The notes under the pieces: generated by a model | The model's input: the letters and a program-made list of their open reading frames with translations, nothing else | Told to the model about the DNA's origin: nothing | Databases searched by the model: none | Translations under genes and position numbers: made by a program | Virus record (IMG/VR): IMGVR_UViG_3300033144_006498 | Coordinates: 1 to 45,366 of that record | DNA from: a virus | DNA: 45,366 nucleotides | Direction: 5' to 3' (one strand) | Part shown: piece after piece, positions 4,501 to 43,307 of the stretch | Layout: the number at the start of each line of letters is the position of its first letter | Numbering within the stretch: the stretch's first letter is position 1

Positions 4501-6246
4501 GATACTAAGGAAGTTTCTAAAGGATATCTTGAGCCGATGATATCTACACTTGAAAAAATGGAAAAAATGCCAAAAATCGATAGCCGTCGATTGGATTTAG
4601 CCCTCCAAAATGGGAATGTTAAAATTCGAGATGCCTACTTAAAACGATATGGCTTGGGAGATGACTTCAAAAAAACTATAGCCGCCAAAGATAGAATCAA
4701 AGCCGATGCTGAAGAGATGGGTATTGAGATTGGGAATGTTGATAACCATTGGCCTAGGCAGGTAGATGATGTTGATGGATTGTTGAAACATTTAAATAAC
4801 AATAACCCTCAATCCTTCCTACTAAGGGCCCTCAAACAAAAAAAGAAAGATTTAGGTAGAGAATTAAGTTTAGAAGAGCGGGAGATTGTAGCTAATCAAT
4901 ATCTTCAAGGAATTAAACCTAAGGGCTTATCCAAACCTGGGAATATAAAAGAAAGAAAAATTGAAACTTTGACCCCTGAAATGGCTAAATATTATAAATC
5001 TTCTGTGGAATCCATGACAAATTATGTGGATACCATGACACGTTATATGGCTCAAAGAAAGTTTTTCGGTAAAAATTCGATTAAAGATGCCGATGGCGTT
5101 AAAGTTGATGTTGAATCCAGCATAGGGGCCCTAATAGCCGACGAAGCTACCTCGGGTAGACTCAAAGCTGGGGATGAGGTAGAGCTAACTAAGGCTCTCC
5201 AAGCGTACTTTAATCCCAGTAATATGAATAAAACTTTCGCTAAGTTTAAAACTTTGGGCTATCTATCAACATTGGGCTCAGTTTTCAACACTGTTACTCA
5301 GTTTACAGATTTGCCGTACTCTATTAGAAAAAATGGCATTAAGAGTTTTTTACAAACAGCCTTCGCTAAAAAGAAATTCAAACTTGAAGATATTAATGTA
5401 GAACACATTGCTGAGGAGTTGTCAGGCTCAGATAAGCTCTCAAAAATTACCAATAAGGTATTTAAGATAAATATGTTTAAAATGGTGGATAGGTGGAGTA
5501 AGGAAACTTTCACGGGTTCCGCTATGAAGACAGCTCAGAGGCAAGCTAAAGCAAATGACCCAAAACTTAATAACAAATTAGAATTTATGTTTGAGGGTAG
5601 AGCTGGCCAAGTTAAACAAGATATTTTAGATGGTACACTTAACAAGGATACTAAATTCTTCGCTTTTCAGGAATTAGCTGGAGTTCAACCTATTTCCCTA
5701 CTGGAAGTACCTCAACAGTATTTGAAGTCTGGTAATTTGAGAATAATGTACATGCTTAAAACTTTTGCTATCAAGCAGTTTGATGTCCTAAGACAGGACT
5801 TGATTGTGAATGTGATGGATGAATACCAGGCTGGGAATAAACTCCAGGCTGCTAAAAATTTTACTAAACTCTCAGGGTTTGTAGGCTCTTTAGTTGCTGC
5901 AGGTATGACCAAAGATGTTGTAACCGATTGGATGTCTGGCAAGGAAATTGATATGGATGATGCTGTTTTAGATAATGTTCTAAAATTATTATTCGTAAGT
6001 AAGTATGCTGCTAGAACTTTCAGGGAAGATGGGATTGCGGCAGGTGTCGCTGGCTTAACCTTTCCACCATTCAAAACCATGGAAGCTGGAATTAAAGACT
6101 TATATAAAGTCTCTGAAGGTAAATTCACACCTAAGGATGCTCAAGTTATTGAGTCTATCCCCGTAGTTGGTGAAATATTCAGTAGACATATAGGCCGAAA
6201 AGCTGAGAAAAGAAAAGCTAAAAGAAGGAAGAAATTAGGGCTATAG
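1534..6246 (+). CDS. Large internal virion protein with N-terminal phage lysozyme domain
   Basis: This 1570-aa protein is the largest in the genome. Residues about 10-130 resemble the tail-associated phage lysozyme family (Phage_lysozyme2): GMIANIKNESAFRPGAIGDQG, with E38 as the likely catalytic Glu, then SGGFFQHHNER. A near-perfect internal repeat (SFYEDLGFVEE / SFYADLGFAEE, residues 176-204) sits in a Pro-rich linker. Residue 651 onward carries EEITHHLQD, reminiscent of but not matching an HExxH metallopeptidase site. Residues about 980-1250 look like the large polyvalent-protein-associated regions of phage ejection proteins (NHWPRQVDD near 1071). The C terminus ends in a basic tail. The likely role is an injected virion protein that locally opens peptidoglycan during DNA entry. 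It is the last gene before the terminator. Confidence 0.82.
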   Translation: MARRKSSINPQEVFNYLTAKKGVSEFHAKGMIANIKNESAFRPGAIGDQGTSGGFFQHHNERFSALKRFAPDWKTNWKGQVDYALTEPDTQRYLKKKFRTPRQASMWFTEKWERPADAKNKARQRAKDVNLAGYDFGDYDSLGFDVVDAGSQPLSTTPPPQPMADIAPTTSPAGDSFYEDLGFVEESASPSTDDSFYADLGFAEEPTAAPINPIVAQVEQLVPEMPIEPVAPEGIDLGDTANMYAQATAPAAIQPDEFVEPNVQQVSKYEQLGSEFDEYRETMPESVMPPGRYGNMLAQQELAENPVEFTPEPVPTPEDFAVNPSKAYYTGAPIIAENRQRERQAKGERTILGKTVGDALSTTDTFWQKGLSALGVNLGKDTPTFAAKLGKSVEDARQQTLATARNENPDAIEQIKTVYEAFKNNPNETIKELGSEIVDHLPSMLVTRKISMGALKRLGKLTKMGAKPTPARKLLTKEKFGSRLKKEALADMPSDVLAGAALKESEGGRYGLSDALTDAATGAVMALPIAGAGHLSGLKVKKIKNLEHLKGFKKLSKEQFDKIENLVVTKDMEKNPKVLEMIPQFLDMADSPNIQKKIIGFDDSNPTKYWDKQELKKAGYGDREPGWFTSAGKTDKGGITLFKKADASTVMEEITHHLQDVAKKDFPEIQKQIKTWENSVRKLARDEGRKIPDGDELFAKVFSAKMGHGDKFPENITTIPIPEKLVTSFGDLLKKEAPEVTEIKAPKRKKESKWLLDEDEVEVPVTPLKKEVKSVSSKPEVPPEVKAKVVVPEKRKPDLVTSESQPKPVIKKKPAPKSILEEIGETYKYENLDKAFPDGPTKKQIIKYLFEKEGIRVPREEASIIRRQLEAGRKTEANITKKATQDKFEEKGIKGEEAEVLEKFRLDEDDIPDDAVRYQLKPDDDAPIDLPPEYIRHGKKKRTIKDVKEKIGSNVGKLRQLAEDTAVPLSTKIGKRSKKVALRVAKYDWDTKEVSKGYLEPMISTLEKMEKMPKIDSRRLDLALQNGNVKIRDAYLKRYGLGDDFKKTIAAKDRIKADAEEMGIEIGNVDNHWPRQVDDVDGLLKHLNNNNPQSFLLRALKQKKKDLGRELSLEEREIVANQYLQGIKPKGLSKPGNIKERKIETLTPEMAKYYKSSVESMTNYVDTMTRYMAQRKFFGKNSIKDADGVKVDVESSIGALIADEATSGRLKAGDEVELTKALQAYFNPSNMNKTFAKFKTLGYLSTLGSVFNTVTQFTDLPYSIRKNGIKSFLQTAFAKKKFKLEDINVEHIAEELSGSDKLSKITNKVFKINMFKMVDRWSKETFTGSAMKTAQRQAKANDPKLNNKLEFMFEGRAGQVKQDILDGTLNKDTKFFAFQELAGVQPISLLEVPQQYLKSGNLRIMYMLKTFAIKQFDVLRQDLIVNVMDEYQAGNKLQAAKNFTKLSGFVGSLVAAGMTKDVVTDWMSGKEIDMDDAVLDNVLKLLFVSKYAARTFREDGIAAGVAGLTFPPFKTMEAGIKDLYKVSEGKFTPKDAQVIESIPVVGEIFSRHIGRKAEKRKAKRRKKLGL

Positions 6247-7419: not shown

Positions 7420-7434
7420 CTAATTCCTTTTATA

Positions 7435-7505
7435 TAACTAGTGTGGGACTCGAACCCACATTATGACTTAGTTAAAAGCCTCCGTAGCCATTCCGACACC
7501 TAGTT
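7435..7505 (-). tRNA. Degenerate tRNA-like gene, isotype uncertain
   Basis: The 71-nt element has an acceptor AACTAG paired with CTAGTT (7th pair mismatched), a D loop GAATGGCTA on a weak 3-bp stem, and a perfect T arm GTGGG-TTCGAGT-CCCAC. The anticodon arm pairs best as GGCTT/AAGTC, which leaves a 6-nt loop TTAACT instead of 7, so the anticodon cannot be read safely (UAA Leu or UUU Lys are possible). The D-loop type resembles Leu/Ser tRNAs, but the variable region is only 5 nt. No CCA is encoded. It may be functional but aberrant, decayed, or a processing site between the helicase gene and the tiny ORFs. Confidence 0.6.
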
Positions 7506-7508
7506 ACT

Positions 7509-11816: not shown

Positions 11817-13832
11817 TTAAGATTTAAATACAGTCTCCATTAAATGTTTAATCCTATCTTCCCTAGTAGGGAAATGTCCCAGGTATTTGTGAAGCAAATT
11901 ATAATAATCTTCACCTTTTTCTGAAATCCAAACCTTCTCATGAGTAATAACGTCCATATCAATTCTAATTGGGAAATTCTTAGTCTTCATAGTGTGGTCA
12001 TAGGCGTTGGACATGCAACTATCTATCTTCATTTTATCTGTATGGACTTCATCTTCTTTACTCAGGGTAACTACCTCATCATGCTTGGTGTATATGACTT
12101 TAAGGCCTCTCTGTCTCATATATTTCACAGCCAAATGGAGCATAGTTGAACCCCTACCCTGTACGGGAAAGTTCAAAGCTGATAATGTAGACCTAGCATC
12201 TTTGAACAAAGCCCAGCCACAAGGTAACTGCAATACACCAGTTTTTAGATACCTAGATTCAATAGCATCCAACATTTTCCAGTACTTAGGGTAAGCTTTT
12301 TGGTGAAGTCGGATTAACTTATTACCACCTTCCTCACTGGTGAACTTTCCAGTATCACCCGTAACTTTTTTACCTAAGGATTTACCTTTCATCCCAAATT
12401 GAACAGCCAATGTAGTAGCTTTAAATGCTCCTCTCTCTACTGGATGAGATTTTTTAGTTCCCTCTTTGGGAATTCCCCCAGCTTCTTTACCAAACCAAAG
12501 GTAAGGGTCACCAGATTCATAGGCCTCAACCATATTCTCATCATGAGCTAAACAGGCCCCAATCGCAAATTCCTGGGAACTATAATCGGCTGGGATGAAC
12601 ACATAACCCTTAGGTGGTCTCATTAAACAATGAAGCCAGGCACTCATGAGTGGGATGTATTTCTTAGTTGATGGCTGACTTCTACCTGTCTGAGCACCGT
12701 AGAGACCCATGAAACTCCTCATTCTATTATCAGAACCAACATTTTCAAATAAATCAGCCTCACCTTTACTCTTATCGGGTTCTCTAAACCATTTGATTTG
12801 ATTGAGAATCTTTTTAGTCTGTCTAAGCTCCTTAAGTATTTTGATATATTCAAAATTTTTAAGGTATTCATCCTTAGTGGAAAGCTGACCACTATCAGTT
12901 TTAGCCCAATCCTTCCTAACATCCACAGTGTCGGGGTGAGTCTCAATGTACTCCTTGAATTTTTCATTAGAGAAAGTCCACTTACCTCTAAGGCTGGTTT
13001 TAGTTAACTTTTTCCAAACAAAAAATGCATAGAGTTCATTGAGCTTTTTGATTAGCTTTTCCTTAATTAGGGGAACATTCCTTCTAAGATTTTTCATTCT
13101 CTCAATATCTATGGGGATACCCTCAGTTTCATGAGTAGCTGCTATGGCTGAATCCTCACCTCTTCTAAGCTGCCATTTATAGAATTTATCTAGCTCTGGC
13201 TTCTTTAATTCATTCCATAAATTAACCGCCATAGTTTTTCTGAGAGCTGGTAAATGGACAATATCAGAATCACAGTAAGCTAAGATATCTGTCTGCTCAG
13301 CCTTAGTGTACTCACCTTTACATTGAAGGATTAAATCCCTCATGGAATGTTTAACCCCAGCATTTATATTGATTCCCAGTTGGTGACCAGCACAGCCTAC
13401 AAGCCCACCCTTAATAATGTAATTGTCTTGTTTCCGAGTACTTCCAAACTGTTTAGGTTTAGAGAAATATTCTATATCCCCAAGAAAGTAAGTCCCAAAA
13501 AGGTATTTATTATTCCTATTCTGAAGTTGTTTAAATTCTAAGTATAAATCAATCCATTTGAAATCCATAGGGTCAAGGCCCAGGGCCTCAAAACACCTAG
13601 CCTCAGCTGCAACCTGGAAGGCTACCATTATAAACCCATCATCCCGGAATTTGGTTAAGGTATCTTTTAATAATTCAAAGTGGTTGGGGTCTTTATGTAA
13701 CCATATATTTGACACACCATGGGGGTCTGTACTTTGGGACCAACTAGCACAAATCAACGTAGGGTGTTTCTCCTGACTTGAGTTGTACTCAAAATCAATG
13801 TAAAGGTATTTTTTCGCTTCAGTTTTACTCAT
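11817..13832 (-). CDS. Family A DNA polymerase with 3'-5' exonuclease
   Basis: 671 aa, the replicative polymerase. The N-terminal proofreading domain shows YIDFEYN (D13, E15) and AYCDSD (186-190). Polymerase motifs: TGRSQPS (382-388), motif A DYSSQE (416-421), motif B RGAFKATTLAVQFG (467-480), motif C KHDEVV (583-588). There is no 5'-3' exonuclease domain; a separate gene at 8964 supplies it. At the position matching E. coli Pol I Phe762 (R-x3-K-x3-X) the residue is Leu475 rather than Phe or Tyr, a variant known in some phages. The start overlaps the upstream lipoprotein stop by 4 nt. Confidence 0.95.
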   Translation of the reverse strand: MSKTEAKKYLYIDFEYNSSQEKHPTLICASWSQSTDPHGVSNIWLHKDPNHFELLKDTLTKFRDDGFIMVAFQVAAEARCFEALGLDPMDFKWIDLYLEFKQLQNRNNKYLFGTYFLGDIEYFSKPKQFGSTRKQDNYIIKGGLVGCAGHQLGININAGVKHSMRDLILQCKGEYTKAEQTDILAYCDSDIVHLPALRKTMAVNLWNELKKPELDKFYKWQLRRGEDSAIAATHETEGIPIDIERMKNLRRNVPLIKEKLIKKLNELYAFFVWKKLTKTSLRGKWTFSNEKFKEYIETHPDTVDVRKDWAKTDSGQLSTKDEYLKNFEYIKILKELRQTKKILNQIKWFREPDKSKGEADLFENVGSDNRMRSFMGLYGAQTGRSQPSTKKYIPLMSAWLHCLMRPPKGYVFIPADYSSQEFAIGACLAHDENMVEAYESGDPYLWFGKEAGGIPKEGTKKSHPVERGAFKATTLAVQFGMKGKSLGKKVTGDTGKFTSEEGGNKLIRLHQKAYPKYWKMLDAIESRYLKTGVLQLPCGWALFKDARSTLSALNFPVQGRGSTMLHLAVKYMRQRGLKVIYTKHDEVVTLSKEDEVHTDKMKIDSCMSNAYDHTMKTKNFPIRIDMDVITHEKVWISEKGEDYYNLLHKYLGHFPTREDRIKHLMETVFKS

Positions 13833-23664: not shown

Positions 23665-23737
23665 TGGGGGATAGCTCAATTGGTAGAGCTTCGCCTTTTG
23701 GTGGCGACGGTTGTAGGTTCAAGTCCTACTCCCTCTG
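23665..23737 (+). tRNA. tRNA-Gln (anticodon UUG)
   Basis: A 73-nt cloverleaf: acceptor TGGGGGA/TCCCTCT (first pair T-T), D arm AGCTC-AATTGGTA-GAGC, anticodon stem TCGCC/GGCGA with loop TTTTGGT (anticodon TTG), variable GGTTG, T arm GTAGG-TTCAAGT-CCTAC, discriminator G. U1, G73 and the weak first pair are features of bacterial tRNA-Gln. CCA is not encoded. Confidence 0.92.
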
Positions 23738-25671: not shown

Positions 25672-27210
25672 TTAAGTTGTAATTATATCTCCATCACCAT
25701 TTTTTACGACTACTCCATCACCATTTAATACCTGTACTGGAGCATTCCTAGCACAAGTCGGTATTCCTGGTACATAAGGTCTAGTTACCCAGCCATCAAA
25801 ATATCTAGTATTTAATATATCGAGCCTTTGTACAGTATTATAAATAACTGGTTCAGCAATCGCACCTTCTAAAAAGAAAACAAAACCTAAAAGATTCCCA
25901 ATATCCAATCTAAGCCCACCATTAACATTAGTGGGGAAAGTCAAAGTTGTTAAACTAAAAGCTTGGTCATTTAATCTCATACTAAATACATTAGTAGTCG
26001 AATTATAAGTTACTTGTATCGAAAACCAGGTATCTCTAGGTACAGTCCCACCAATTTGTTGGAATACACTATCTTGATTTGCACCAGCATTTGAGTAGAG
26101 AGTGGCTGATATTCCATCACCAGCACCATAAGTTATGGTTACAAATAACTCACCCACACCAAAACCTGAAAGGAGACTTAAAATATTAGCGTCCTCAGAT
26201 AATCCATGAGCCGCATCTATATAAGCCCAAACAGTAATTGTAAAATCATTTTCTCTTAAAGCATCAAGGTCTGTGGAGGTCGTTGATATAGCTCCACCAA
26301 TTATTCCATCAAATTCAATAGCCCCATTAACACCACCAACTTTTGGGCCAACAATGTAATCAGCACCGCCACCAGATGTTAAATCTATAGAGTTGGTACT
26401 GGCATCATCTAAAAAACTTGAACCATCATTAAAAAAGTGAGCACAAACTACATCACTACGAAGTCCACCACCTTTAAAATGGTAGTCTATTATATTTTGA
26501 GGTAAAACTCTGTCGAGGTAATAAATTACATTATCCACATCCCCTTTAAAAGGGAGGACCCCAGTATCAAGCGTAGAACCTATTAATAATCGTTGACCAG
26601 TAGGCGCACCAGTTATTACATGAGTTCCAGTATTAGTTTCTTGGTTGTCATTAACTTGTATACTAAATACATCTGTATCAGCATCATAAGTTATTGCAAT
26701 AAATATCCAAGTATTTTTAGGCGTTCCACCATTAATGGTCATCCCTGTAAAGAAACCACCAGCTCCATTGGCAAAAAACAGGACAAGCCCATCGCCAGTA
26801 TTTTCCCAGAACACATTAAATACGCCATCATTATTCATATCACCAGAAGTGACACCGAATAGATAACCTGGGGCAGTAATGGTTGGGTCTATATTAGCCC
26901 ACCCACAAGCTGTGAAACTTTCAGCCCTAAAATCATCAATTATCCCACCCCCTAGCCGGGAATTTAGTTTTGCGAAAGTTCCTTGAAAAGTTGCTGCATT
27001 GTCGAGGATTCCATCAGACGTAAAGAAAGCTCCACCAGATGCATCCATACTCAAATCATTTGGACCACAATCTTGCCTATCTCCTGATACTTCATTTAAA
27101 GAGTAAAAAGCAAATAGGTCTTGGTCGATAGCGTTTCCACCACCACCTTTACCGTTAAATAGGCCTAGTTTAAAATTTCTTAAAAAATTCGCTGCCGATT
27201 GTATTCCCAT
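25672..27210 (-). CDS. Double LamG-domain fibre/tailspike protein, paralogue 2
   Basis: 512 aa. The N terminus MGIQSAANFLRNFKLGLF is shared with the next gene and probably attaches the protein to the particle. Two concanavalin-like LamG domains follow (about 30-240 and 255-470), each with the FYSLNE..GDR, AATFQG, FTACGW and NTWIFIAITYD type strands. The end has a small repeat (LNGDGVVVKNGDGDII). Such domains bind carbohydrate, so receptor recognition is inferred. Paralogue of the upstream gene at 27275. Confidence 0.75.
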   Translation of the reverse strand: MGIQSAANFLRNFKLGLFNGKGGGGNAIDQDLFAFYSLNEVSGDRQDCGPNDLSMDASGGAFFTSDGILDNAATFQGTFAKLNSRLGGGIIDDFRAESFTACGWANIDPTITAPGYLFGVTSGDMNNDGVFNVFWENTGDGLVLFFANGAGGFFTGMTINGGTPKNTWIFIAITYDADTDVFSIQVNDNQETNTGTHVITGAPTGQRLLIGSTLDTGVLPFKGDVDNVIYYLDRVLPQNIIDYHFKGGGLRSDVVCAHFFNDGSSFLDDASTNSIDLTSGGGADYIVGPKVGGVNGAIEFDGIIGGAISTTSTDLDALRENDFTITVWAYIDAAHGLSEDANILSLLSGFGVGELFVTITYGAGDGISATLYSNAGANQDSVFQQIGGTVPRDTWFSIQVTYNSTTNVFSMRLNDQAFSLTTLTFPTNVNGGLRLDIGNLLGFVFFLEGAIAEPVIYNTVQRLDILNTRYFDGWVTRPYVPGIPTCARNAPVQVLNGDGVVVKNGDGDIITT

Positions 27211-27274: not shown

Positions 27275-28708
27275 TTATATGGCGCACGATGGCCTTCCGG
27301 GTTCGAGAGGTCTCTGTGGTTGCCCTCTCATATAAAGTGTATTTAAATGTTCGTCCGATTCGACCCCATTAAAAATGGTTGCCTCATCTACACCACCGTC
27401 AAGGAATGTATCTATACCTAAAGTACTACCAAAACTTATCCTAAGTCCCGAGTTTACATTGGTCGGACCACCTAAAACAGTTGACCCCCAGGCCTGGTCA
27501 TTTAGTCGCATCCTTAGAGTTGATGTTGGTTCGTCGTATGTTATTTGTACAGAAATCCATGCAGCCCTAGGGACTCCACCACCAATTTGTTGGAATAAGA
27601 ATGAGTTACCAATTCCTCCATTATAGGATATACTAGCCACTATTCCATTAGATGGTTCGAAATAAAGTACTGAGATTAATATTTCCCCGGTGTTGACACC
27701 ACTAGAAATTCCCATAAACAAACCGTTGGCACTTGCTGAGGCGTTTATGTAACCCCACATTGTGAGGGTAAAAGAGTTTTCTCTAAGCGCATCGATATCA
27801 GCATGAGTTTCAGAACTAGCCCAACCCTCACCACCTGTAAAGAAAAGGGAATCACCTTTGAGACCAATTTCTGTAGTGTATATACCTTGGGGGATTACAG
27901 GATGTTTATCTTGATTTTCATCATGACCTATGTTAGGTTCTTCAAAAAAGTAGGCCGCCATAACACTAGACTGAAGGCCACCCCCTTTATATAAAAAATC
28001 TAATTCTGGGTCAGTTAGCATTCTATCAAATAAAGACGTTTCCTCAGCTTTACCCCATTGAAGTAAACCTTCATTAGTTAAAGCCCCTAGGCAGAATTTA
28101 GGGGGAGTTGCTACAGCTAATTGGTCAGGGAAAGTTCTGTCAGCGGTAAACCCTAAGTCATTTATCCGTAGAGACATAGTTTTAGTGGCAGAGTTGTATT
28201 TAACTGCCATAAACATCCAAGCATTTAAAGGCACACCACCGTTAATATTCCAACCAAAAAAATTATATAAAGTCCCTTGAGGAGCAGCAACAACTATTGA
28301 TTGGCTACCAGCATCAAAGAAAAGATAGGATAAATTTTCATTACCCACTGCAATATTCCCATCACCTAGAGCTAGGAAAGTTTGACTAAAATAATTAGCC
28401 GAAAGAGTGAACCAACCACTATAGGTGAAATCTTTACCTACTAAGTCGGTTAGGGCTGTGTTGGTATCTGAAGTTAATCGTCCCACAGCTGTAAAAGCAG
28501 CTGCACCATTAATTCTACCTGCAACACTAAATCCTACAGTATTGACAACATTTAAATCAATATCATTATCTGTACAATCAAACCTAACCCCTGAAGCTTC
28601 ATCCAAAGTGTGGTAAGATACCAAACCTTTGTCTATAGACTTACCAGCCCATTCAAAAAGACCTAGTTTGAAATTTCTTAATGAATTAACTGCTGATTGT
28701 ATTCCCAT
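27275..28708 (-). CDS. Double LamG-domain fibre/tailspike protein, paralogue 1
   Basis: 477 aa. Opens MGIQSAVNSLRNFKLGLF, almost the same 18 residues as the gene after it, then two LamG-like domains (LVSYHTLDEASG, AAAFTAVG, FTYSGWFTL; second with FTLTMWGYI and AWISVQITYDEPT). The bodies differ much more than the N termini, as expected for receptor-binding proteins that diverged after duplication. A 64-nt spacer separates the two genes. First gene of the inverted cassette; a promoter must lie in 28709-28827, but no clear one is seen. Confidence 0.75.
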   Translation of the reverse strand: MGIQSAVNSLRNFKLGLFEWAGKSIDKGLVSYHTLDEASGVRFDCTDNDIDLNVVNTVGFSVAGRINGAAAFTAVGRLTSDTNTALTDLVGKDFTYSGWFTLSANYFSQTFLALGDGNIAVGNENLSYLFFDAGSQSIVVAAPQGTLYNFFGWNINGGVPLNAWMFMAVKYNSATKTMSLRINDLGFTADRTFPDQLAVATPPKFCLGALTNEGLLQWGKAEETSLFDRMLTDPELDFLYKGGGLQSSVMAAYFFEEPNIGHDENQDKHPVIPQGIYTTEIGLKGDSLFFTGGEGWASSETHADIDALRENSFTLTMWGYINASASANGLFMGISSGVNTGEILISVLYFEPSNGIVASISYNGGIGNSFLFQQIGGGVPRAAWISVQITYDEPTSTLRMRLNDQAWGSTVLGGPTNVNSGLRISFGSTLGIDTFLDGGVDEATIFNGVESDEHLNTLYMRGQPQRPLEPGRPSCAI

Positions 28709-28827: not shown

Positions 28828-30384
28828 TTGACAGAAACCGCAGAATTAAAAGAAGGCGAAACCGAAATTTGGAAACCCCAAGAGGGTATGCAAGAGGTTT
28901 TTTGTGAGAGTAGTGAAACTGAAATATTCTATGGTGGTCAGGCTGGTGGAGGCAAATCTATTGCCCTTATTATTATAGGTGCTCGATATATTAGTGAGCC
29001 TAACTATAAAGCTATCATATTTAGAAGAACATTCCCAGAAACTGAAGAACTAATTACAGAAGCCCGTAAAATATACACTCCATTAGGTGGGGTTTACAAG
29101 GGTGCCCTTCATGCTTTTGTTTGGTCTAATGGGGCCAAAGTCATGTTTTCCCATATGCAGCACATAAAAGATATCTACTCCCATATGGGTAGGCAGTATG
29201 ATTTTATTGGCTTTGATGAATTAACGCATTTCCCAAAATTGGCCTATACTTACCTTTTTTCGAGATTAAGGGGCACGAATCCGAAAATTAAGAAGTTTAT
29301 GCGGTCCACAGGTAATCCTGATGGACCGGGCCTCCTTTGGGTAAAGAATCGGTTCTATGACCCGATGACACCACTCCAGGCAGCATTTTTTAAGACTTTT
29401 GCTAGTAGAGATGTAAAAGTAACCCAAGATACCCCAGGAGCTATCTCCCGTAAGTTTGTGCCTTGTGTTAGGTCTGAAAATAAAGCTTTAATGGATAATG
29501 ACCCTGAGTACGAAAATAGACTAGACCAATTACCAGAAGATAAGAAGCGAGCTTTGAAAGAAGGTCTCTGGACTCTGATGGATAAACCAGACCAACTAAT
29601 CCAATCTGAATGGTGGGAAGCTGCAACAAATGGAGCTAACCCATACCATGATGATGGAAATTACACAATTGGGGCTGATTTCGGCACTCACCAAGGTGTA
29701 GATAAATCGGTTGAATTTGTTGGGAAGGGCAACAGACCCTACAGTTGTCGTAGTTGGCCAAAAACAAAAACAACTCAATTTGCTCAAATACTCGCAGATT
29801 CAGCCAACTCAGTGACCCATAACCGAGTAATGATTGGAATCGATTCCATTGGCCCAGGAACTGGAGTTGCAGATGAGCTTGAAGAGCATCACAAATTAGC
29901 TGCTATAGTAGATAGGTGTTCCCATAAAGACCCAATCTTTGATGAAAAATATATTGGGGATATCCAATTTGATAATTTACGAAGTCAAATGTGGTGGAAA
30001 ATGAAAAAGGATATGGAGGATGGACTTATAGATTTATCCCTATTCCAAGGCGCAGCATATTTTGAGGATTACCATGAGCTTGAAGAAGAGATTCTAGCTC
30101 ACACTTTTAGGGTCTACAACGGTAAATTAATAGTTGTTTCCAAAGAAGAACTAAGAAAACCTGAGCATATTGGCAGGTCACCGGATTATGCTGATGCCTT
30201 AGTTATTTGGAATTGGACCCGTAGACACCATATGACTAGAGAAGTCAATGCTGATGCAGACTATGAAGTAGATGATGACATGAAAGCTATGTTTGATGAT
30301 TCCGAAGATGATGAAGCCGATACAGCTGAATATGATGAAGATGACCCACAATTCGATGAACTTGATGGGTTTGATGAGTACTAA
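28828..30384 (+). CDS. Terminase large subunit
   Basis: 518 aa; TTG start at 28828 preceded by AGGGA. ATPase: Walker A GGQAGGGKS (36-44), Walker B FIGFDELTHF (126-135), coupling-type STGNPDG (160-166). Nuclease (RNase H fold): GADFGTHQG (D284), MIGIDSIGPG (D339), RSPDYADALV (D453/D456). It cuts and pumps DNA into the procapsid at the portal. The C-terminal 45 residues are extremely acidic (DDSEDDEADTAEYDEDD), unusual for the family and perhaps a contact to the portal or a partner. Confidence 0.95.
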   Translation: MTETAELKEGETEIWKPQEGMQEVFCESSETEIFYGGQAGGGKSIALIIIGARYISEPNYKAIIFRRTFPETEELITEARKIYTPLGGVYKGALHAFVWSNGAKVMFSHMQHIKDIYSHMGRQYDFIGFDELTHFPKLAYTYLFSRLRGTNPKIKKFMRSTGNPDGPGLLWVKNRFYDPMTPLQAAFFKTFASRDVKVTQDTPGAISRKFVPCVRSENKALMDNDPEYENRLDQLPEDKKRALKEGLWTLMDKPDQLIQSEWWEAATNGANPYHDDGNYTIGADFGTHQGVDKSVEFVGKGNRPYSCRSWPKTKTTQFAQILADSANSVTHNRVMIGIDSIGPGTGVADELEEHHKLAAIVDRCSHKDPIFDEKYIGDIQFDNLRSQMWWKMKKDMEDGLIDLSLFQGAAYFEDYHELEEEILAHTFRVYNGKLIVVSKEELRKPEHIGRSPDYADALVIWNWTRRHHMTREVNADADYEVDDDMKAMFDDSEDDEADTAEYDEDDPQFDELDGFDEY

Positions 30385-30408
30385 CCAAAACAAAAAAGGA
30401 AGTGACCA

Positions 30409-30828
30409 ATGAGAGATGTATATGCAGTAAATCAAAAAACAGGGGCTGAGAAAGACAGTACCGTAGATGTAGAAATCCCTGACAGTGGTGTAAAAATCCC
30501 TGATGCCCCAGATTATGACAAAATTGGGCTAAAGATGATGGACAAAAGAGTCTTATTCCAAGATTTCCCCCATGCCCAAAAAATTGGTAGAGTTTATGTG
30601 CCTAGAGTTGGAGATGTCGGGGTTGCCCAAGCCAGAGTTGTGGCTATTGGCGACAAGGTTACACAGTGTGAAGTTGGGGATATTATCTACAAAATAGCTG
30701 AATTAGGTCAAACTATTCTCACACCCATTGGAGAGTTTAGATTTTTACCTGAAGATATGGTTATTGCCATAGTTAAAGATGGTAATGCAGCTTCATTGAT
30801 TCCACCTATCAAGGACGATGCAGCCTAA
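30409..30828 (+). CDS. GroES-like co-chaperonin
   Basis: 139 aa. After a 40-residue extension, residues about 44-130 follow the chaperonin-10 pattern: MDKRVLFQDF, RVYVPRVG at the mobile-loop region, ARVVAIGDKV, CEVGDIIYKI, TPIGEFRFLPEDMVIAIV. The core matches the usual cpn10 length, but the loop is short. It probably replaces host GroES on GroEL, as T4 gp31 does, to fold the capsid protein; the position between terminase and portal fits. Ribosome site AAGGAAG. Confidence 0.8.
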   Translation: MRDVYAVNQKTGAEKDSTVDVEIPDSGVKIPDAPDYDKIGLKMMDKRVLFQDFPHAQKIGRVYVPRVGDVGVAQARVVAIGDKVTQCEVGDIIYKIAELGQTILTPIGEFRFLPEDMVIAIVKDGNAASLIPPIKDDAA

Positions 30829-31196
30829 TGAGTAGTGATAATCCTTTTTTCAAGAAGCGACCCTCAATCCAAGGCGGTAAAGATGCACCTATTATTGCCC
30901 GATTGCCTCAACACTTTTTTTCTAGTTTTGAGGGGTTGAAAAAGGAATTGTTTAAACATGAAGCATGTATAGCTTTAATACCCAATACCAAGTCAGATAA
31001 GGATTTCCCCTTTGCGTACCATGCAGCTTTTGCATATAAAGATGGGACAAATAGGGTTTATACTATGGTATTAACTCAACATGATGGTCAATTAAAAGAT
31101 GACCCCACGGAGGCTATTGAGAAGATTGTGAAAGCAACTCAACAACCACCTAAGAAAAATAAAAAGAAAAATAAAAAAAAGAAAAGGAGAAAGTAA
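30828..31196 (+). CDS. Hypothetical protein with poly-Lys tail
   Basis: 122 aa. A compact mixed alpha/beta body (FFSSFEGLKKELFKHEACIA, FAYHAAFAYKDG) ends in a tail of nearly only Lys and Asn (KKNKKKNKKKKRRK), which would bind DNA or RNA. Coupled by TAATG on both sides with the co-chaperonin and the HTH gene. Role unknown; packaging or genome binding is a guess. Confidence 0.65.
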   Translation: MSSDNPFFKKRPSIQGGKDAPIIARLPQHFFSSFEGLKKELFKHEACIALIPNTKSDKDFPFAYHAAFAYKDGTNRVYTMVLTQHDGQLKDDPTEAIEKIVKATQQPPKKNKKKNKKKKRRK

Positions 31197-31466: not shown

Positions 31467-33470
31467 ATGGTAGAAGATACTGAAACTAATGATAACTATG
31501 ATGATGCTTTAAATCATCTTGACCGTTCAAAAAACGCTAACGATTTAATTACTCATCATCGATGGGTAAAAGAATGGCATGACCCCTACAATACAAACAG
31601 AGAAGTTAACTTCAATTTTGTTAGGGGGAATCATTATGACCCCAATGAAGAGAAAAAGTTTCGGGATAAGCGAAAAACTGCCGTAGTTTTTAATCAAATA
31701 AAAACCTCAGAGAGAACAATCTTAGGTTTATGGCTACAGAATGCCTATGCCATCAAATTCTCAGCCTCATCTCCTATAGACGATGATATTGCAGAAATTT
31801 TAGAACAATTGAATATCTGGGAAGCTTATCAGCAAGATGATGAGATGAATGATATTGAACTTATTCGTCAAGCTTGGGCTGGTGGAACATCTTATCAAGA
31901 ATGTTTCATGGAAGTTAAAAAGGGCCGTAAGCCCATAATGAAAACTCACCAGCAAAATCCATTCGCTATTTACTTTGACCCTGAATCTAGGGACCTTATC
32001 CGTAGAAGAGATGCCCATTTTGTGGACAGAGTTTCTTGGATGACTTTTCCTGAAATACAAAGAGCTTGGGATAAAGAAGCTAAGAAAGTTGGTAGAGTTC
32101 TAAGTTCCAGCCAAAATGGTCAAGGAAGCTATGAACCCGTAAACGTATATGCTGATAGGGGTCATGAGACCCATAATGAAAGAAATGGCGAATTCAAAGT
32201 AATTGAAAGATTCTATAAAGTTTGGGAAATGGCCCACTTTTCTGAAGAGGAAGGTGAGCGAGTTGAAATTGAGAAGAAAGACCTCAAAAAATTTAGAATG
32301 GAAAATCCCAATGTTAAATTAATCCGTGAAGAACAGGAGTTCCTTTATGTGGCTATTGCCTGTGAAGAGTACTCTCTCGATTCCTACTTATATAATGGAA
32401 GATATCATAACCAGCCTAGGGACCCACTTACTCAAGAGATTATGTGGCCTATTTTGGAAATGATTGCTGAAAGTTTGAACGGTGAACCTACAGGATTCGT
32501 CGAACACGAAAGAGGTGCAAATAAGATTGTAAACTCTATGATGGCTAATATTTTGTCATCAGCTACACATTCAGCAGCAGCAGCTATGTTAATTGACCCT
32601 ACAGCTTTTAAGTCTGACAGGGAAGCAAAATTAGCAGCCAAACATCACTCTGATTCTGATAGAGCCTTCCAAGTTAAGAAAGGTAGGACTCAGGATGCTA
32701 TGGCCCCAGTTGCTAGAGCTGGCGTTGGTCAAGACCATATGTATGCTTTAGACTTTTCCTTAAACTTTTTGCGTGAGGTCACCAGTACACCACCAGCCCT
32801 ACAAGGCCAGGAAGAGAAATCAGGTGTATCTGGTGTTTTAAATTCCCAGAGAATTGAACAAGGCTTTATCCAATTACAGCCTTTAATGAAAAATTACATC
32901 TTGTTCTTAAAACAAAGAGCAAAACTTAGATACTATTATTGGCGTGAATATTATACCAATGAAATGGTTTTCCGAGTAGTAGACAAAACCAAACCACAAA
33001 CAAACCCATTTGCTACCATTAATGAAATGGTTGCTGAGCAAGATGCTGTGGGTAGATTTACTGGCGGTTATAAGAAATTAAATGATATTACTACAGCTAT
33101 CTATGATATATACACTGAAGAATCAGTCAAATCTGCAACGTACAGAAACAGACAGTTATCCTTTATCGAAGGATTATCACAGTCTCAATTTGCACAGCAA
33201 GATGCTGGCCTTGCAGCCGTATTATTAGGAGAAGCCCTTAGATTATCAGATGCCCCAATGGAGACTAAAGAAGCTTTAAAGAAAAGCTCTAATCTCATCC
33301 AAGAAGCCGAAAAAGCTAAACAAGCAGCTGAACAAGCCTTGTCAGCTACCCAACAGCAAGGTGCTGAATTGGATAATGAAGCTAAAATGCAGGGTATAGC
33401 TCAGGTAGAGGCCGAGCAAACAGGAATTTCACCGACAGCTACAGCAGCTCAACCAGTTGCGATGGCTTAA
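31467..33470 (+). CDS. Portal protein (P22-like)
   Basis: 667 aa, typical size for P22-like portals. N-terminal region HRWVKEWHDPYNTNREVNFNF, KTAVVFNQIKTSERTILG, then IRQAWAGGTSYQECFMEV and NPFAIYFDPESRD, the conserved portal core that places the genome gateway. The C-terminal 130 residues are Ala/Gln-rich helices, like the barrel of P22 portals. It forms the dodecameric ring that binds the terminase and the connector. Confidence 0.88.
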   Translation: MVEDTETNDNYDDALNHLDRSKNANDLITHHRWVKEWHDPYNTNREVNFNFVRGNHYDPNEEKKFRDKRKTAVVFNQIKTSERTILGLWLQNAYAIKFSASSPIDDDIAEILEQLNIWEAYQQDDEMNDIELIRQAWAGGTSYQECFMEVKKGRKPIMKTHQQNPFAIYFDPESRDLIRRRDAHFVDRVSWMTFPEIQRAWDKEAKKVGRVLSSSQNGQGSYEPVNVYADRGHETHNERNGEFKVIERFYKVWEMAHFSEEEGERVEIEKKDLKKFRMENPNVKLIREEQEFLYVAIACEEYSLDSYLYNGRYHNQPRDPLTQEIMWPILEMIAESLNGEPTGFVEHERGANKIVNSMMANILSSATHSAAAAMLIDPTAFKSDREAKLAAKHHSDSDRAFQVKKGRTQDAMAPVARAGVGQDHMYALDFSLNFLREVTSTPPALQGQEEKSGVSGVLNSQRIEQGFIQLQPLMKNYILFLKQRAKLRYYYWREYYTNEMVFRVVDKTKPQTNPFATINEMVAEQDAVGRFTGGYKKLNDITTAIYDIYTEESVKSATYRNRQLSFIEGLSQSQFAQQDAGLAAVLLGEALRLSDAPMETKEALKKSSNLIQEAEKAKQAAEQALSATQQQGAELDNEAKMQGIAQVEAEQTGISPTATAAQPVAMA

Positions 33471-33541: not shown

Positions 33542-34888
33542 ATGAGTATAGAAGCGATAGAAACAGAAGTACCAGCCACAGTAGAGGTGGATACACAAGG
33601 TGTACCCGAAACCCCTATAGAGACTGATGTACCCGAAGTCACCCCTGAGTCTGCACCGGAAGTAGCTGGTCCGTCTGATATTGAACAATATCAGGACCTT
33701 CTAGCAAAAGCCAGTAAAGACACAGAGTATGAGATGTCCAATGAAGAACTTGAAATGTTTGATAGCGTTCAAGAGAAGATTCAGAATGGGGAAATTCCAG
33801 AACCTGGATTAAAAGAGGACAAACCTGCCGAAGACCCAAAACCAGAAATTAAACCAGAAATTGCAGATACTGAAACTCCTAGTGAGACAGCTGATGTGCT
33901 TGATGCTTTATCTATGGAAAAGGGGGACTCTTTACAAGATGCCATGACTAAGGTAGGGGCAAAAGATTTAAGTGAATTACCTGGAAAAATCGATGGCCTG
34001 TTAAATGGCATGAGAGATTCCGGGGGAAAGTTGGGAAACCAAAACACCAAGTTGCAGGCTGAAGTTGATGCAAATACCAATTTTATGCAAGCCTTAGGTG
34101 CCAAGGACCCAGGGGCAATAGCTCATTTTAAAAAAGTAACAGGTATAGATATCTCTGCACCCGTTCCAGTTACAAAGGAACAAGCTGCACCTGCAGCGGC
34201 TACAGCTGATTTTGACCCTGATAGTTTTTTAGATGATAAATTGGCTCCCGTTGTTAAAGGTTTAATGGACAAAATAGAAGCTCTAGAAGCTAATAATAAG
34301 TCCTTAGTCGCCAACGATGAGAGTCGAGCACAAACAGCAGCACAAACAGCAGCAGAGACTGCAGAAGCTCAAGCCAGGGAAGCCTGGACTGAAGATGTAG
34401 TTGAACTTGTAACTGATTATGCTGACGATTTCGGTTTGAACCCAAGTGAAGCGAGAGCTTTAGCGAAGTTTTACTGGAGTAAAGAAGGTGCTAAAACTGC
34501 TGTCCATCCTAGATTCCAAAAAGTCCATAAACTCATAGCATATGCTGGTGACAACGACATGCCTAACCTTGAAACTGCTCATTTGATGCTGCAAAAAAAG
34601 ACTGGGGTACATGCCCAAAAACTTATAGATGCAGAGAAAAGAGGCCAACAGGCCAATCAACATACCGAATCCCCTAACTTGGCAATCTCTGCTAAACAGG
34701 GCCGAACTAAATCAACCAATCCAACACCGCAAGTAACAGAAGACATGATTGAAGCCATGAAAGGTGGAGATTTAAATGCGATACCTGATAGTGTATTAAA
34801 TGAGTGGACTGATGAAGATTATAACTTCGACAAATCCAAGATACCTGAAAGGTTCCATAAAGCTGTGTTTGGTGGTGAAACATACTAA
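33542..34888 (+). CDS. Scaffold-like protein
   Basis: 448 aa between portal and major capsid genes, the usual scaffold place. Very acidic and Pro/Thr-rich N terminus (about 1-125), coiled-coil-forming middle (LMDKIEALEANNKS, AQTAAQTAAETAEAQARE) and a small C-terminal helical region. This composition suits an assembly scaffold. No sequence family is recognised. Ribosome site AAGGAAA. Confidence 0.7.
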   Translation: MSIEAIETEVPATVEVDTQGVPETPIETDVPEVTPESAPEVAGPSDIEQYQDLLAKASKDTEYEMSNEELEMFDSVQEKIQNGEIPEPGLKEDKPAEDPKPEIKPEIADTETPSETADVLDALSMEKGDSLQDAMTKVGAKDLSELPGKIDGLLNGMRDSGGKLGNQNTKLQAEVDANTNFMQALGAKDPGAIAHFKKVTGIDISAPVPVTKEQAAPAAATADFDPDSFLDDKLAPVVKGLMDKIEALEANNKSLVANDESRAQTAAQTAAETAEAQAREAWTEDVVELVTDYADDFGLNPSEARALAKFYWSKEGAKTAVHPRFQKVHKLIAYAGDNDMPNLETAHLMLQKKTGVHAQKLIDAEKRGQQANQHTESPNLAISAKQGRTKSTNPTPQVTEDMIEAMKGGDLNAIPDSVLNEWTDEDYNFDKSKIPERFHKAVFGGETY

Positions 34889-34901: not shown

Positions 34902-36158
34902 ATGTCTGCAGTACCAGTAATTAACGCCCTCCAGGTACAAGCCTGGAAGAAAAAAATGATAAAAGAAGTAATATCCAGTGTACTCTGGTCTTCTTTATCA
35001 AATAGAGTAAATGAAACGTCAGCCTTACCAAATGGTGGAAAAAAGGCCGTTCCCGATTCTGTAGTACAGTGGGTTACGGACAAATTTACCAAAGGTATTC
35101 AAAAAACAACCGTTCCTTTCCTAGCTAAGTTAAATCTTATGGGTCAAGGTGGTTGGCAAACAGTTGAAGGGCAAGAAGAAACCCCTCAAATGAGATTCAA
35201 AACCATCAATTACAATATTCAAAGAAAAGCCCTAGCGGTTACCGATGAATCTGTAGAAGGTGATTTGACTGACTACTACGCAATTGCATCTCAAAAAGTA
35301 CAGTTATTAACTGATTATTTCTCTGAATTAACAGATTATAACTTCCAAAGAGCAATGTTACGTGGTGCTGATGAGTTCTTAACAGAACAAGAATACTGGA
35401 ACGGTAATACACTTACTGCACCTCCAGTGGCCACATCTTTCCACCCTCATTTCTTTGTTAATGGGCAATCTTCCCAAGTAACGTGGAATGCAAATGAAGC
35501 TACTTATGGTGGTAACATTAATACAGCCGTAAACACAATGAATGCTGCTAACACTTTTAACTTAGCTGCAGCTGACTCAATTGTATTCCAAAAAGATTAT
35601 TCTGGTGGAATTAAATTGCAAAAATTGGGCTGGAAATCTGGTGACAACTCTGTGCAAGCAGTAGCTATGTTATCTGAAAGACAGGGCCAACAATTATCAA
35701 CTGGCACAGGAGTTGGTTCTTGGAAAGAGTTGATGTCTGAAGCTGGCAAACGTGGTGTTGATAACAGAGCTATTTCTGGAGTCCTAGGTACATACAAACG
35801 TATCTTATGGTTAACAGATGAAAGAGCTCCTATATGGAACTCCGCGGCTGCTGCACCTGACGACTACATTCAATTCCACAAAATTGCTGATGAAAGAGCA
35901 CCTGCTGCTCACACTGGCTCTGGCGTTGGAACTGTTGAAATGTGTAGAGTTTCTGGTCAAGGCGCAATCGGTGCAGCTCAAATTAAAGATTTGAACTTCA
36001 CTTACAAAAAATTTGATTATGGTTTTTCTGAAGGCGTAGCTGCTCACCAAGCAACTGGCTGTGAAAGAATGGACTTAACCAATACTGCAATTTCTGCAAA
36101 ACCACTTAACCAAAGTTCATTCGTATATTGTACTAGCACACCAGCTAACGCAATATAA
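34902..36158 (+). CDS. Major capsid protein (N4 gp56-like family)
   Basis: 418 aa. Residues about 60-170 fit the N4 gp56-type capsid family: TVPFLAKLNLMGQGGWQTV, MRFKTINYNIQRKALAVTD, QKVQLLTDYFSELTDYNF. Its codon use is more even and C-ending than its neighbours, as expected of the most strongly expressed gene. Ribosome site AAGGAG. It forms the icosahedral shell around the scaffold. A hairpin terminator follows the next gene. Confidence 0.9.
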   Translation: MSAVPVINALQVQAWKKKMIKEVISSVLWSSLSNRVNETSALPNGGKKAVPDSVVQWVTDKFTKGIQKTTVPFLAKLNLMGQGGWQTVEGQEETPQMRFKTINYNIQRKALAVTDESVEGDLTDYYAIASQKVQLLTDYFSELTDYNFQRAMLRGADEFLTEQEYWNGNTLTAPPVATSFHPHFFVNGQSSQVTWNANEATYGGNINTAVNTMNAANTFNLAAADSIVFQKDYSGGIKLQKLGWKSGDNSVQAVAMLSERQGQQLSTGTGVGSWKELMSEAGKRGVDNRAISGVLGTYKRILWLTDERAPIWNSAAAAPDDYIQFHKIADERAPAAHTGSGVGTVEMCRVSGQGAIGAAQIKDLNFTYKKFDYGFSEGVAAHQATGCERMDLTNTAISAKPLNQSSFVYCTSTPANAI

Positions 36159-42627: not shown

Positions 42628-42951
42628 ATGACAACGAATAAAGATTGGATGGAACTAAAAGATGAGATAAATGAGGTGAAATCTATGCTCAAGGAGCATC
42701 TATCCGTCGCAAACGTGGTGGATGGGAATGTTCGAGAGAAAGTGAAGGTTCTTTACACTAAATTAGACAAACTCATAACTAAGGTAGATAAAAATATTTC
42801 AACCATATCAGACCTTGTAACTAAGATAGCTGTTCTGGAAAATTCAAATAAATCAGATAAGGAAGTATGGAAAACAATAGCGACATGGGTCATGGCCCTC
42901 ACAACAGTATTTACCCTAGCGTGGTTGATGATACAAAAGTTGTGGCCCTAA
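42628..42951 (+). CDS. Holin-like / XhlA-like membrane protein
   Basis: 107 aa from the ATG at 42628 (a GTG two codons earlier is inside the hairpin). Residues 1-80 are coiled coil (MELKDEINEVKSMLKEH, TKLDKLITKVDKNIST); a single TM segment closes the protein (WVMALTTVFTLAWLMIQ). This N-coil, C-TM plan is that of XhlA-type haemolysin/holin accessory proteins. It is the best holin candidate in the genome, though no endolysin is next to it. Confidence 0.55.
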   Translation: MTTNKDWMELKDEINEVKSMLKEHLSVANVVDGNVREKVKVLYTKLDKLITKVDKNISTISDLVTKIAVLENSNKSDKEVWKTIATWVMALTTVFTLAWLMIQKLWP

Positions 42952-43307
42952 TTGATGTGGATAGCTTTTATTTAAGCCTATTCGAGGATTTTTTCGACGA
43001 TGAGCCAGCCATCATCAATTACTTTGGCGTTGGGGCCGCATTCTTAGAAATCAGCCCCGACCTAATGGCCACGTTTGATTATATCGTAATAAACCACAAC
43101 CTATTTGACATGAAAGGGATTGACTTATTAAGCCGTTGCAGACAATTCTTCAAAGGAAAAGTCTGCATAATTTCCAGTTTTGGGAGTGCTGTAACTCCTG
43201 AAGAAATGATAAAATTTGATATTTCAGGGGATTTTGAAAAACAAGACCGTGAAAGTTTACTTGACTGGTATAATGACCGAGTCCCTGAATTAGGGAGAGA
43301 AGTGTAA
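42867..43307 (+). CDS. Degenerate response-regulator receiver-like protein
   Basis: 146 aa, starting inside the previous gene (85-nt overlap; GTGs at 42921 or 42942 are alternatives). Residues about 24-135 follow the CheY-like order: VVALIDVDS (D30), FDYIVINHNLFDMKGIDLL aligning with CheY FVISDWNMPNMDGLELL, CIISSFG (S103/S104 at the Thr87 site), GDFEKQD (K125 at Lys109). The phosphoacceptor Asp57 is replaced by Asn76, so it should not be phosphorylated normally. It may mimic or trap a host signalling protein, or be a purely structural use of the fold. Confidence 0.6.
   Translation: MENNSDMGHGPHNSIYPSVVDDTKVVALIDVDSFYLSLFEDFFDDEPAIINYFGVGAAFLEISPDLMATFDYIVINHNLFDMKGIDLLSRCRQFFKGKVCIISSFGSAVTPEEMIKFDISGDFEKQDRESLLDWYNDRVPELGREV

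Follow-up and report, generated by a model that had tools for sequence, protein, structure and literature searches.

Does the short open reading frame at positions 30409-30828, in the head-gene region of the viral DNA analysed here (the window, 45,366 nucleotides at its full length), encode a phage co-chaperonin of the GroES/cpn10 type, and what would such a protein do in a phage of this kind? The first-pass annotation of the locus had read it as a phage GroES-like co-chaperonin in the head module, and this core reading is now supported by family matches, by a structure model and by the position of the gene. We consider it likely that the ORF encodes a divergent GroES/cpn10-type co-chaperonin, with a predicted activity in partnership with GroEL.

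The ORF is a real gene. It starts 24 bases after the stop codon of the gene for the terminase large subunit (TerL), its own stop codon overlaps the next ATG (TAATG), and the GC content of its three codon positions (0.58/0.34/0.31) resembles that of the TerL (0.52/0.37/0.32) and portal (0.51/0.36/0.30) genes; on the grounds of this composition, of its leader and of the gene overlap, it looks translated and part of the same late operon (Table 1). The Shine-Dalgarno-like AGGAAG and its spacer support the upstream start codon and, thus, the N-terminal extension of the protein. The earlier placement “between terminase and portal” holds in that the gene is found between those of TerL and a P22-type portal protein (76.5 kDa), but it does not adjoin the latter, as a 122-aa and a 67-aa helix-turn-helix (HTH) ORF intervene. 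The 122-aa ORF found no match in Pfam, PHROGs or NCBIfam. The presence of a repressor-like HTH protein within a head operon, directly 5' of the portal gene, is recorded as a separate observation.

Table 1. Position of the co-chaperonin candidate, of its parts and of the neighbouring genes in the window.
Feature	Position	Strand	Basis or remarks
Terminase large subunit (TerL)	28828..30384	+	phrog_979 E=2.1e-52; PF03237 E=2e-12
Shine-Dalgarno-like AGGAAG plus 6-base spacer before the ATG	30397..30408	+	Sequence, by inspection
GroES/cpn10-like co-chaperonin gene	30409..30828	+	139 aa, 15.1 kDa, ATG start; PHROG 3188 match, AlphaFold2, fold search
N-terminal extension, residues 1-39	30409..30525	+	Mostly low confidence: block pLDDT 40-55 (residues 1-30), 75 (residues 31-40)
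Predicted cpn10 beta-barrel core, residues 40-123	30526..30777	+	PHROG match, alignment A8, AlphaFold2, fold search
Mobile-loop equivalent, about residues 55-69	30571..30615	+	Alignment; pLDDT block means 67 (residues 51-60), 49 (residues 61-70)
Shortened roof-loop region, residues 82-89	30652..30675	+	Alignment A8
122-aa basic ORF	30828..31196	+	Start overlaps the stop of the co-chaperonin gene
Small helix-turn-helix protein, 67 aa	31196..31399	+	PF13560 E=3.7e-8
P22-type portal protein	31467..33470	+	PF16510 E=1e-49; phrog_156 E=6e-54
Probable scaffold, 448 aa, acidic (pI 4.4)	33542..34888	+	Assigned by position and composition alone, no convincing family match
Major capsid protein, 418 aa, 45.6 kDa	34902..36158	+	phrog_334 major head protein E=1.9e-14

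Other features of the record were noted beside this operon. On the opposite strand, two adjoining proteins at 25672-27210 and 27275-28708 (-) have near-identical starts (MGIQSA..., ...LRNFKLGLF) and laminin-G-like domains, and are probably the products of duplicated tail-fibre or adhesin genes. A 1570-aa protein at 1534-6246 (+), with an N-terminal phage tail lysozyme domain (PF18013 E=1.5e-15), is probably an internal virion or ejection protein. The small protein encoded at 42867-43307 (+) resembles a response-regulator receiver domain (PF00072 E=1.8e-5, below the cut-off), to our knowledge an unusual protein in a small phage. A tRNA-Gln (TTG) is situated at 23665-23737 (+), and ARAGORN reported an unassigned tRNA-like stretch at 7434-7506 (-) for which there was no Rfam report. 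When the ends of the record are joined (45365 to 39), one frame stays open from the last ORF into ORF 39-485; a search for exact terminal repeats of 20-399 bases found none, and the genome may be complete in this record, in circular or permuted form.

Three profile libraries were compared with the protein. PHROG 3188, “co-chaperonin GroES”, was the best of 38,880 PHROGs (E=4.5e-4, 21 bits) and is matched by residues 42-123 along positions 4-95 of the 96 in the profile, a weak match in a library that carries no curated cut-off. The runner-up, phrog_931 (E=0.19, 12.6 bits, with no single stretch passing on its own), corresponds to the T4 gp31 family; gp31 itself scores 3.7e-50 there and only E=0.013 with phrog_3188, weaker than our ORF; judged by the phrog_931 profile, the ORF is placed outside the gp31 family. 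In Pfam, the sole match listed was Cpn10 (PF00166; E=0.051), whose 14 bits are below the curated cut-off of 21.1 bits, so that the ORF is not filed by score as a member of a family that T4 gp31 enters with 30.8 bits. NCBIfam likewise listed a sole match, GroES, below its cut-off (E=0.084). By hhalign, the ORF was aligned with ten phage GroES along residues 45-126 (probability 85%, P=6e-6).

Sub-threshold scores of this sort in Pfam and NCBIfam would also fit another small all-beta phage protein, matched to GroES by chance or composition and with a structure model steered by its alignment. The same can be said of the six-frame search of the record with Pfam Cpn10, which returned nothing at E<=1, and of part of the shuffling results: 2 of 2,000 composition-matched shuffles scored above the ORF with the purpose-built GroES HMM “headmod” (E 0.75) and 1 of 2,000 with “big” (E 0.034), none of the 2,000 doing so with “all” (E 0.0098). 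This explanation is opposed by the agreement of the top match in the three libraries, the two best PHROGs being both co-chaperonin families, by the rank of the ORF, first of 4,684 ORFs with each of the three HMMs, and by a register and strand pattern that are coherent along its core. The cpn10 pattern reported in the first-pass annotation is hence more than chance, though weak by sequence, according to the PHROG, Pfam and NCBIfam matches and to the HMM and shuffle tests.

Full-length automatic alignments shift the first half of the protein into another register. The register used here was obtained after the extensions of the relatives had been trimmed; it also fits the match ranges of Pfam and PHROG and was picked by judgement before AlphaFold2 (AF2) was run with the alignment. 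The alignment, A8, contains 42 sequences, namely the ORF, 27 phage GroES (69 of 174 GroES loci were entered by hand and clustered into 27 representatives below 75% identity) and 14 bacterial GroES, used from 80 loci (the best 80 of 575 confirmed relatives).

A single-sequence AF2 model of the ORF was rejected for its mean pLDDT of 30, a result that also suits an all-beta protein unrelated to cpn10. With A8, the model reached a mean pLDDT of 72.9 and a pTM of 0.61; residues 41-50 (block mean 94) and 71-120 (block means 89-95) were confident, and the extension, the mobile-loop region and the C-terminal 19 residues scored lower. Foldseek against the PDB placed cpn10-family chains in ranks 1-34 (chains of 7ekq among these top ranks were counted as such, being named chaperonins), with T4 gp31 (1g31) in rank 18. 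By VIA-align, the Z score was 9.7 to Thermus Cpn10 (1wnr), 9.4 to Xanthomonas GroES (3nx6; rmsd 1.0 over 65 residues) and 8.3 to T4 gp31 (1g31, 2cgt), the first unrelated entry being a quinone oxidoreductase with Z 6.1. In a viral structure library, 76 models matched at E<=0.001, and among the best 50 of these 35 are named GroES, co-chaperonin or chaperonin, the other 15 having no name. Because the alignment given to AF2 was made of GroES proteins, this fold test is not independent, and the alignment may have steered the model; conditional on it, the model shows the sequence to be compatible with a cpn10 fold at high confidence. Structure prediction, the check suggested in the first-pass annotation, returned a cpn10 barrel under a GroES alignment, with cpn10s, T4 gp31 included, as its nearest structures, and the refuting outcome named there, a prediction lacking the cpn10 fold, did not occur. 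A cpn10 fold is very probably present in the ORF, and we regard the alternative, an unrelated all-beta protein matched to GroES by chance, as most improbable.

Three parts of the putative co-chaperonin were compared with the usual GroES. The N-terminal extension claimed in the first-pass annotation was recovered at about 38-40 residues, as cpn10 matches begin at residue 41 (Pfam), 42 (PHROG) and 38 (NCBIfam). As for the mobile loop, whose limits we take to be those of E. coli GroES, R47 to G60 encloses 12 residues in A8 versus 13 in all 41 other GroES, and the loop is thus near normal length; what had been described as a short mobile loop is one residue shorter than its aligned counterparts, and the short element is instead the roof loop. 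There, 8 residues separate G81 from G90, versus 17 in 14/14 bacterial and 14-25 in the 27 phage GroES of A8, which indicates that the roof hairpin is absent. T4 gp31 also lacks the roof loops and is functional, and its mobile loop has 22 residues versus 16 in GroES (PMC6318259). With its short roof and near-normal loop, the ORF is like gp31 in the former and unlike it in the latter.

Within the loop, the motif G60-R61-V62-Y63-V64-P65 replaces the GG-I-V-L of GroES, the GroEL-contacting motif in E. coli; the hydrophobic tripeptide is kept as VYV, and arginine occupies position 61, where the 41 other rows of A8 (41/41) have glycine. The annotated cpn10 of Manatee Spring phage ctpbd312 reads G-R-I-V-L, with the same one-residue gap. 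Mutants of groES at the double glycines of the mobile loop are defective. The cpn10 barrel could have been kept while the partnership with GroEL was lost, the fold having found a new use, such as that of a head accessory protein or an assembly protein; this would explain the lost double glycine, the lost roof and the added extension. R61, the 8-residue roof, the great divergence of the sequence and the location in the head module are all in agreement with such a reuse; nonetheless, the hydrophobic tripeptide is retained (VYV for IVL), the loop form K-[TI]-G-R-hydrophobic is also that of the annotated ctpbd312 protein, and the roofless gp31 works, so that we hold it to be improbable.

Compared with bacterial GroES (PF00166), with which the barrel, the mobile-loop position and the C-terminal strand pattern can be aligned, the protein has no roof loop, has the second loop glycine replaced and has gained the N-terminal extension. 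With T4 gp31 it has in common, by alignment, a similarly short roof stretch and CEVGD, but gp31 has a longer mobile loop and no long N-terminal extension (its match starts at residue 9), and its gene is not part of a head operon. A closer likeness in arrangement is offered by gp36 of the Pelagibacter phage HTVC023P (146 aa) and by the GroES of Phage DSL-LC04 (150 aa), which are also encoded in the head module, have an alignable core and bear an N-terminal extension of ~40-45 residues (cpn10 match from residue 41 and 46, respectively). As in HTVC023P-type head modules, a cpn10 gene with an N-terminal extension is found near packaging and head genes, although the gene order differs, the HTVC023P-type gene being situated between the portal and capsid genes and ours between those of TerL and the portal. 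The extension sequences are not clearly alike, the identity is about 21-23%, and the HTVC023P-type GroES, unlike the ORF, have the GG motif and a roof stretch of greater length.

Other phages share single traits with the locus. In the Manatee Spring phages ct2os315 (43.8 kb) and ctpbd312 (57.5 kb), the cpn10 gene lies between those of a head-to-tail connecting protein and the major capsid protein, so that it follows a portal-type gene, whereas the ORF precedes the portal gene; the cpn10 of ct2os315 has a shortened roof stretch, as the ORF does, but also a clear Pfam Cpn10 match (E=2e-13) and no N-terminal extension. Xanthomonas phage PBR31 (40 kb) has the order GroES, small ORF, TerL and portal, with GroES upstream of TerL, and its GroES has no N-terminal extension and a clear Cpn10 match (E=8e-18).

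These examples bear on how rare such a gene is. The co-chaperonin GroES is given among 13 core genes of the HTVC023P-type podophages (n=82, mean genome ~58.8 kb; PMC9599517). In HTVC023P, DSL-LC04, ct2os315 and ctpbd312, a GroES gene lies between the gene for a portal or head-to-tail connecting protein and that for a capsid protein; in MinM2, CRP-901 and Caulobacter RW, it either follows TerL at a short distance or precedes the gene for a head protein. Scans of IMG/VR with three phage GroES queries gave 570, 14 and 593 confirmed stretches, sets which may overlap; in the set of 14, three lie on contigs of 45.5, 46.7 and 50.8 kb, and each of the three shows the order TerL, portal, GroES, scaffold and capsid, as judged from ORF sizes and sequence. 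The 174 loci mentioned above are the best 80 of the 570, 14/14, and the best 80 of the 593, that is, relatives of the three query phages. Of these loci, 140 extend for more than 1.5 kb upstream of GroES, and 126 of the 140 have a portal relative on that side; 42 extend for more than 3.6 kb downstream, and all 42 have a capsid relative there. The idea that phage co-chaperonins are uncommon in 45-kb podovirus-like genomes is thus unsupported, GroES near head genes being known in podovirus-like phages of ~40-60 kb. A phage co-chaperonin in a head operon is a well-known, common kind of gene and not in itself surprising; the divergence of this one, its missing roof and its place between TerL and portal are what is unusual.

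With the protein as a tblastn query, neither the 50,697 phage records nor the 72,556 plasmid records searched gave a relative at E<=1. A peptide-pattern scan of viral contigs matched no stretch, one of genome contigs gave 13 stretches, none of them related, and a scan with a three-sequence alignment gave 600 candidate stretches, none a tblastn relative of the ORF. Single-protein scans with TerL and with the portal found none, nor did tblastn in phages with the portal, the capsid protein and the VapE-like protein. At the loci of 80 TerL relatives and at further loci, phmmer found no relative among 4,321 ORFs (best E 4.9), and 0/12 records chosen from TerL relatives had a phrog_3188 match at E<=0.1, which suggests that the GroES-like gene has no visible association with TerL of this type and is not universal nearby. 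The DNA polymerase of the record, at 11817-13832 (-), is 32.6% identical over 79% to that of a Silvanigrella aquatica phage (CP017838, E=2e-72) and is the only long protein clearly common to both; this shared polymerase is a hint, no more, of a similar host. In the CP017838 phage, the purpose-built HMMs found no GroES-like ORF (best E 2). Within the part of the literature covered on phage, viral and pelagiphage GroES, including N-terminally extended forms, we found no published description of the ORF.

Turning to function, a phage-encoded GroEL partner was rejected, since a PF00118 search of the record gave no match (controls 14/14), and the partner would then be the GroEL of the host. By likeness to GroES and T4 gp31, seven copies of the protein would form a ring, the loop with V62-Y63-V64 would dock on the apical domains of host GroEL, and the lid would close the cage, inside which phage head proteins would fold; lacking roof loops as gp31 does, the dome would be more widely open at its top. 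The 76.5-kDa portal protein exceeds the usual limit of the GroEL cage. T4 gp31 replaces GroES for the folding of the capsid protein gp23 (PMC3012670), and by analogy the likely task would be the folding of head proteins, the 45.6-kDa capsid protein first. On this analogy there is a fair presumption that head-protein folding is the main task of the co-chaperonin, and the major capsid protein would be its likeliest client.

A co-chaperonin working with GroEL need not, however, be devoted to head assembly: as a variant inside the reading that we prefer, it could serve a general purpose, aiding the GroEL system under cold or stress, and merely sit in the late operon. In a study of the Southern Ocean virome, frequent viral analogues of GroEL and GroES are linked to cold adaptation (PMC8407431). 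On the other hand, among the podovirus-like GroES phages examined, the gene is repeatedly found close to those for packaging and head proteins, and gp31, the best-known case, serves a capsid protein; a general-purpose role is accordingly quite improbable in our estimation.

Returning to the divergent GroEL co-chaperonin as the preferred reading, a bolder version of it may be put forward, which we consider unlikely though worth stating. A small podovirus-like phage could have arrived, independently of gp31, at a roofless co-chaperonin in which the roof hairpins were lost and seven arms were added at the N-termini; the arms might reach into the enlarged opening or lie across it and be selective for the capsid or portal protein of the phage itself, so that a genome of ~45 kb would possess a dedicated GroEL cage. 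Should the preferred reading be right, phage co-chaperonins would extend to a sequence missed by standard cut-offs, and small phages may then carry them more often than is now estimated. There would also be a second roofless lid beside gp31, with a mobile loop of normal length and an N-terminal arm, and the comparison of the two would help to separate the effects of roof, loop and cage size in the folding of capsid proteins.
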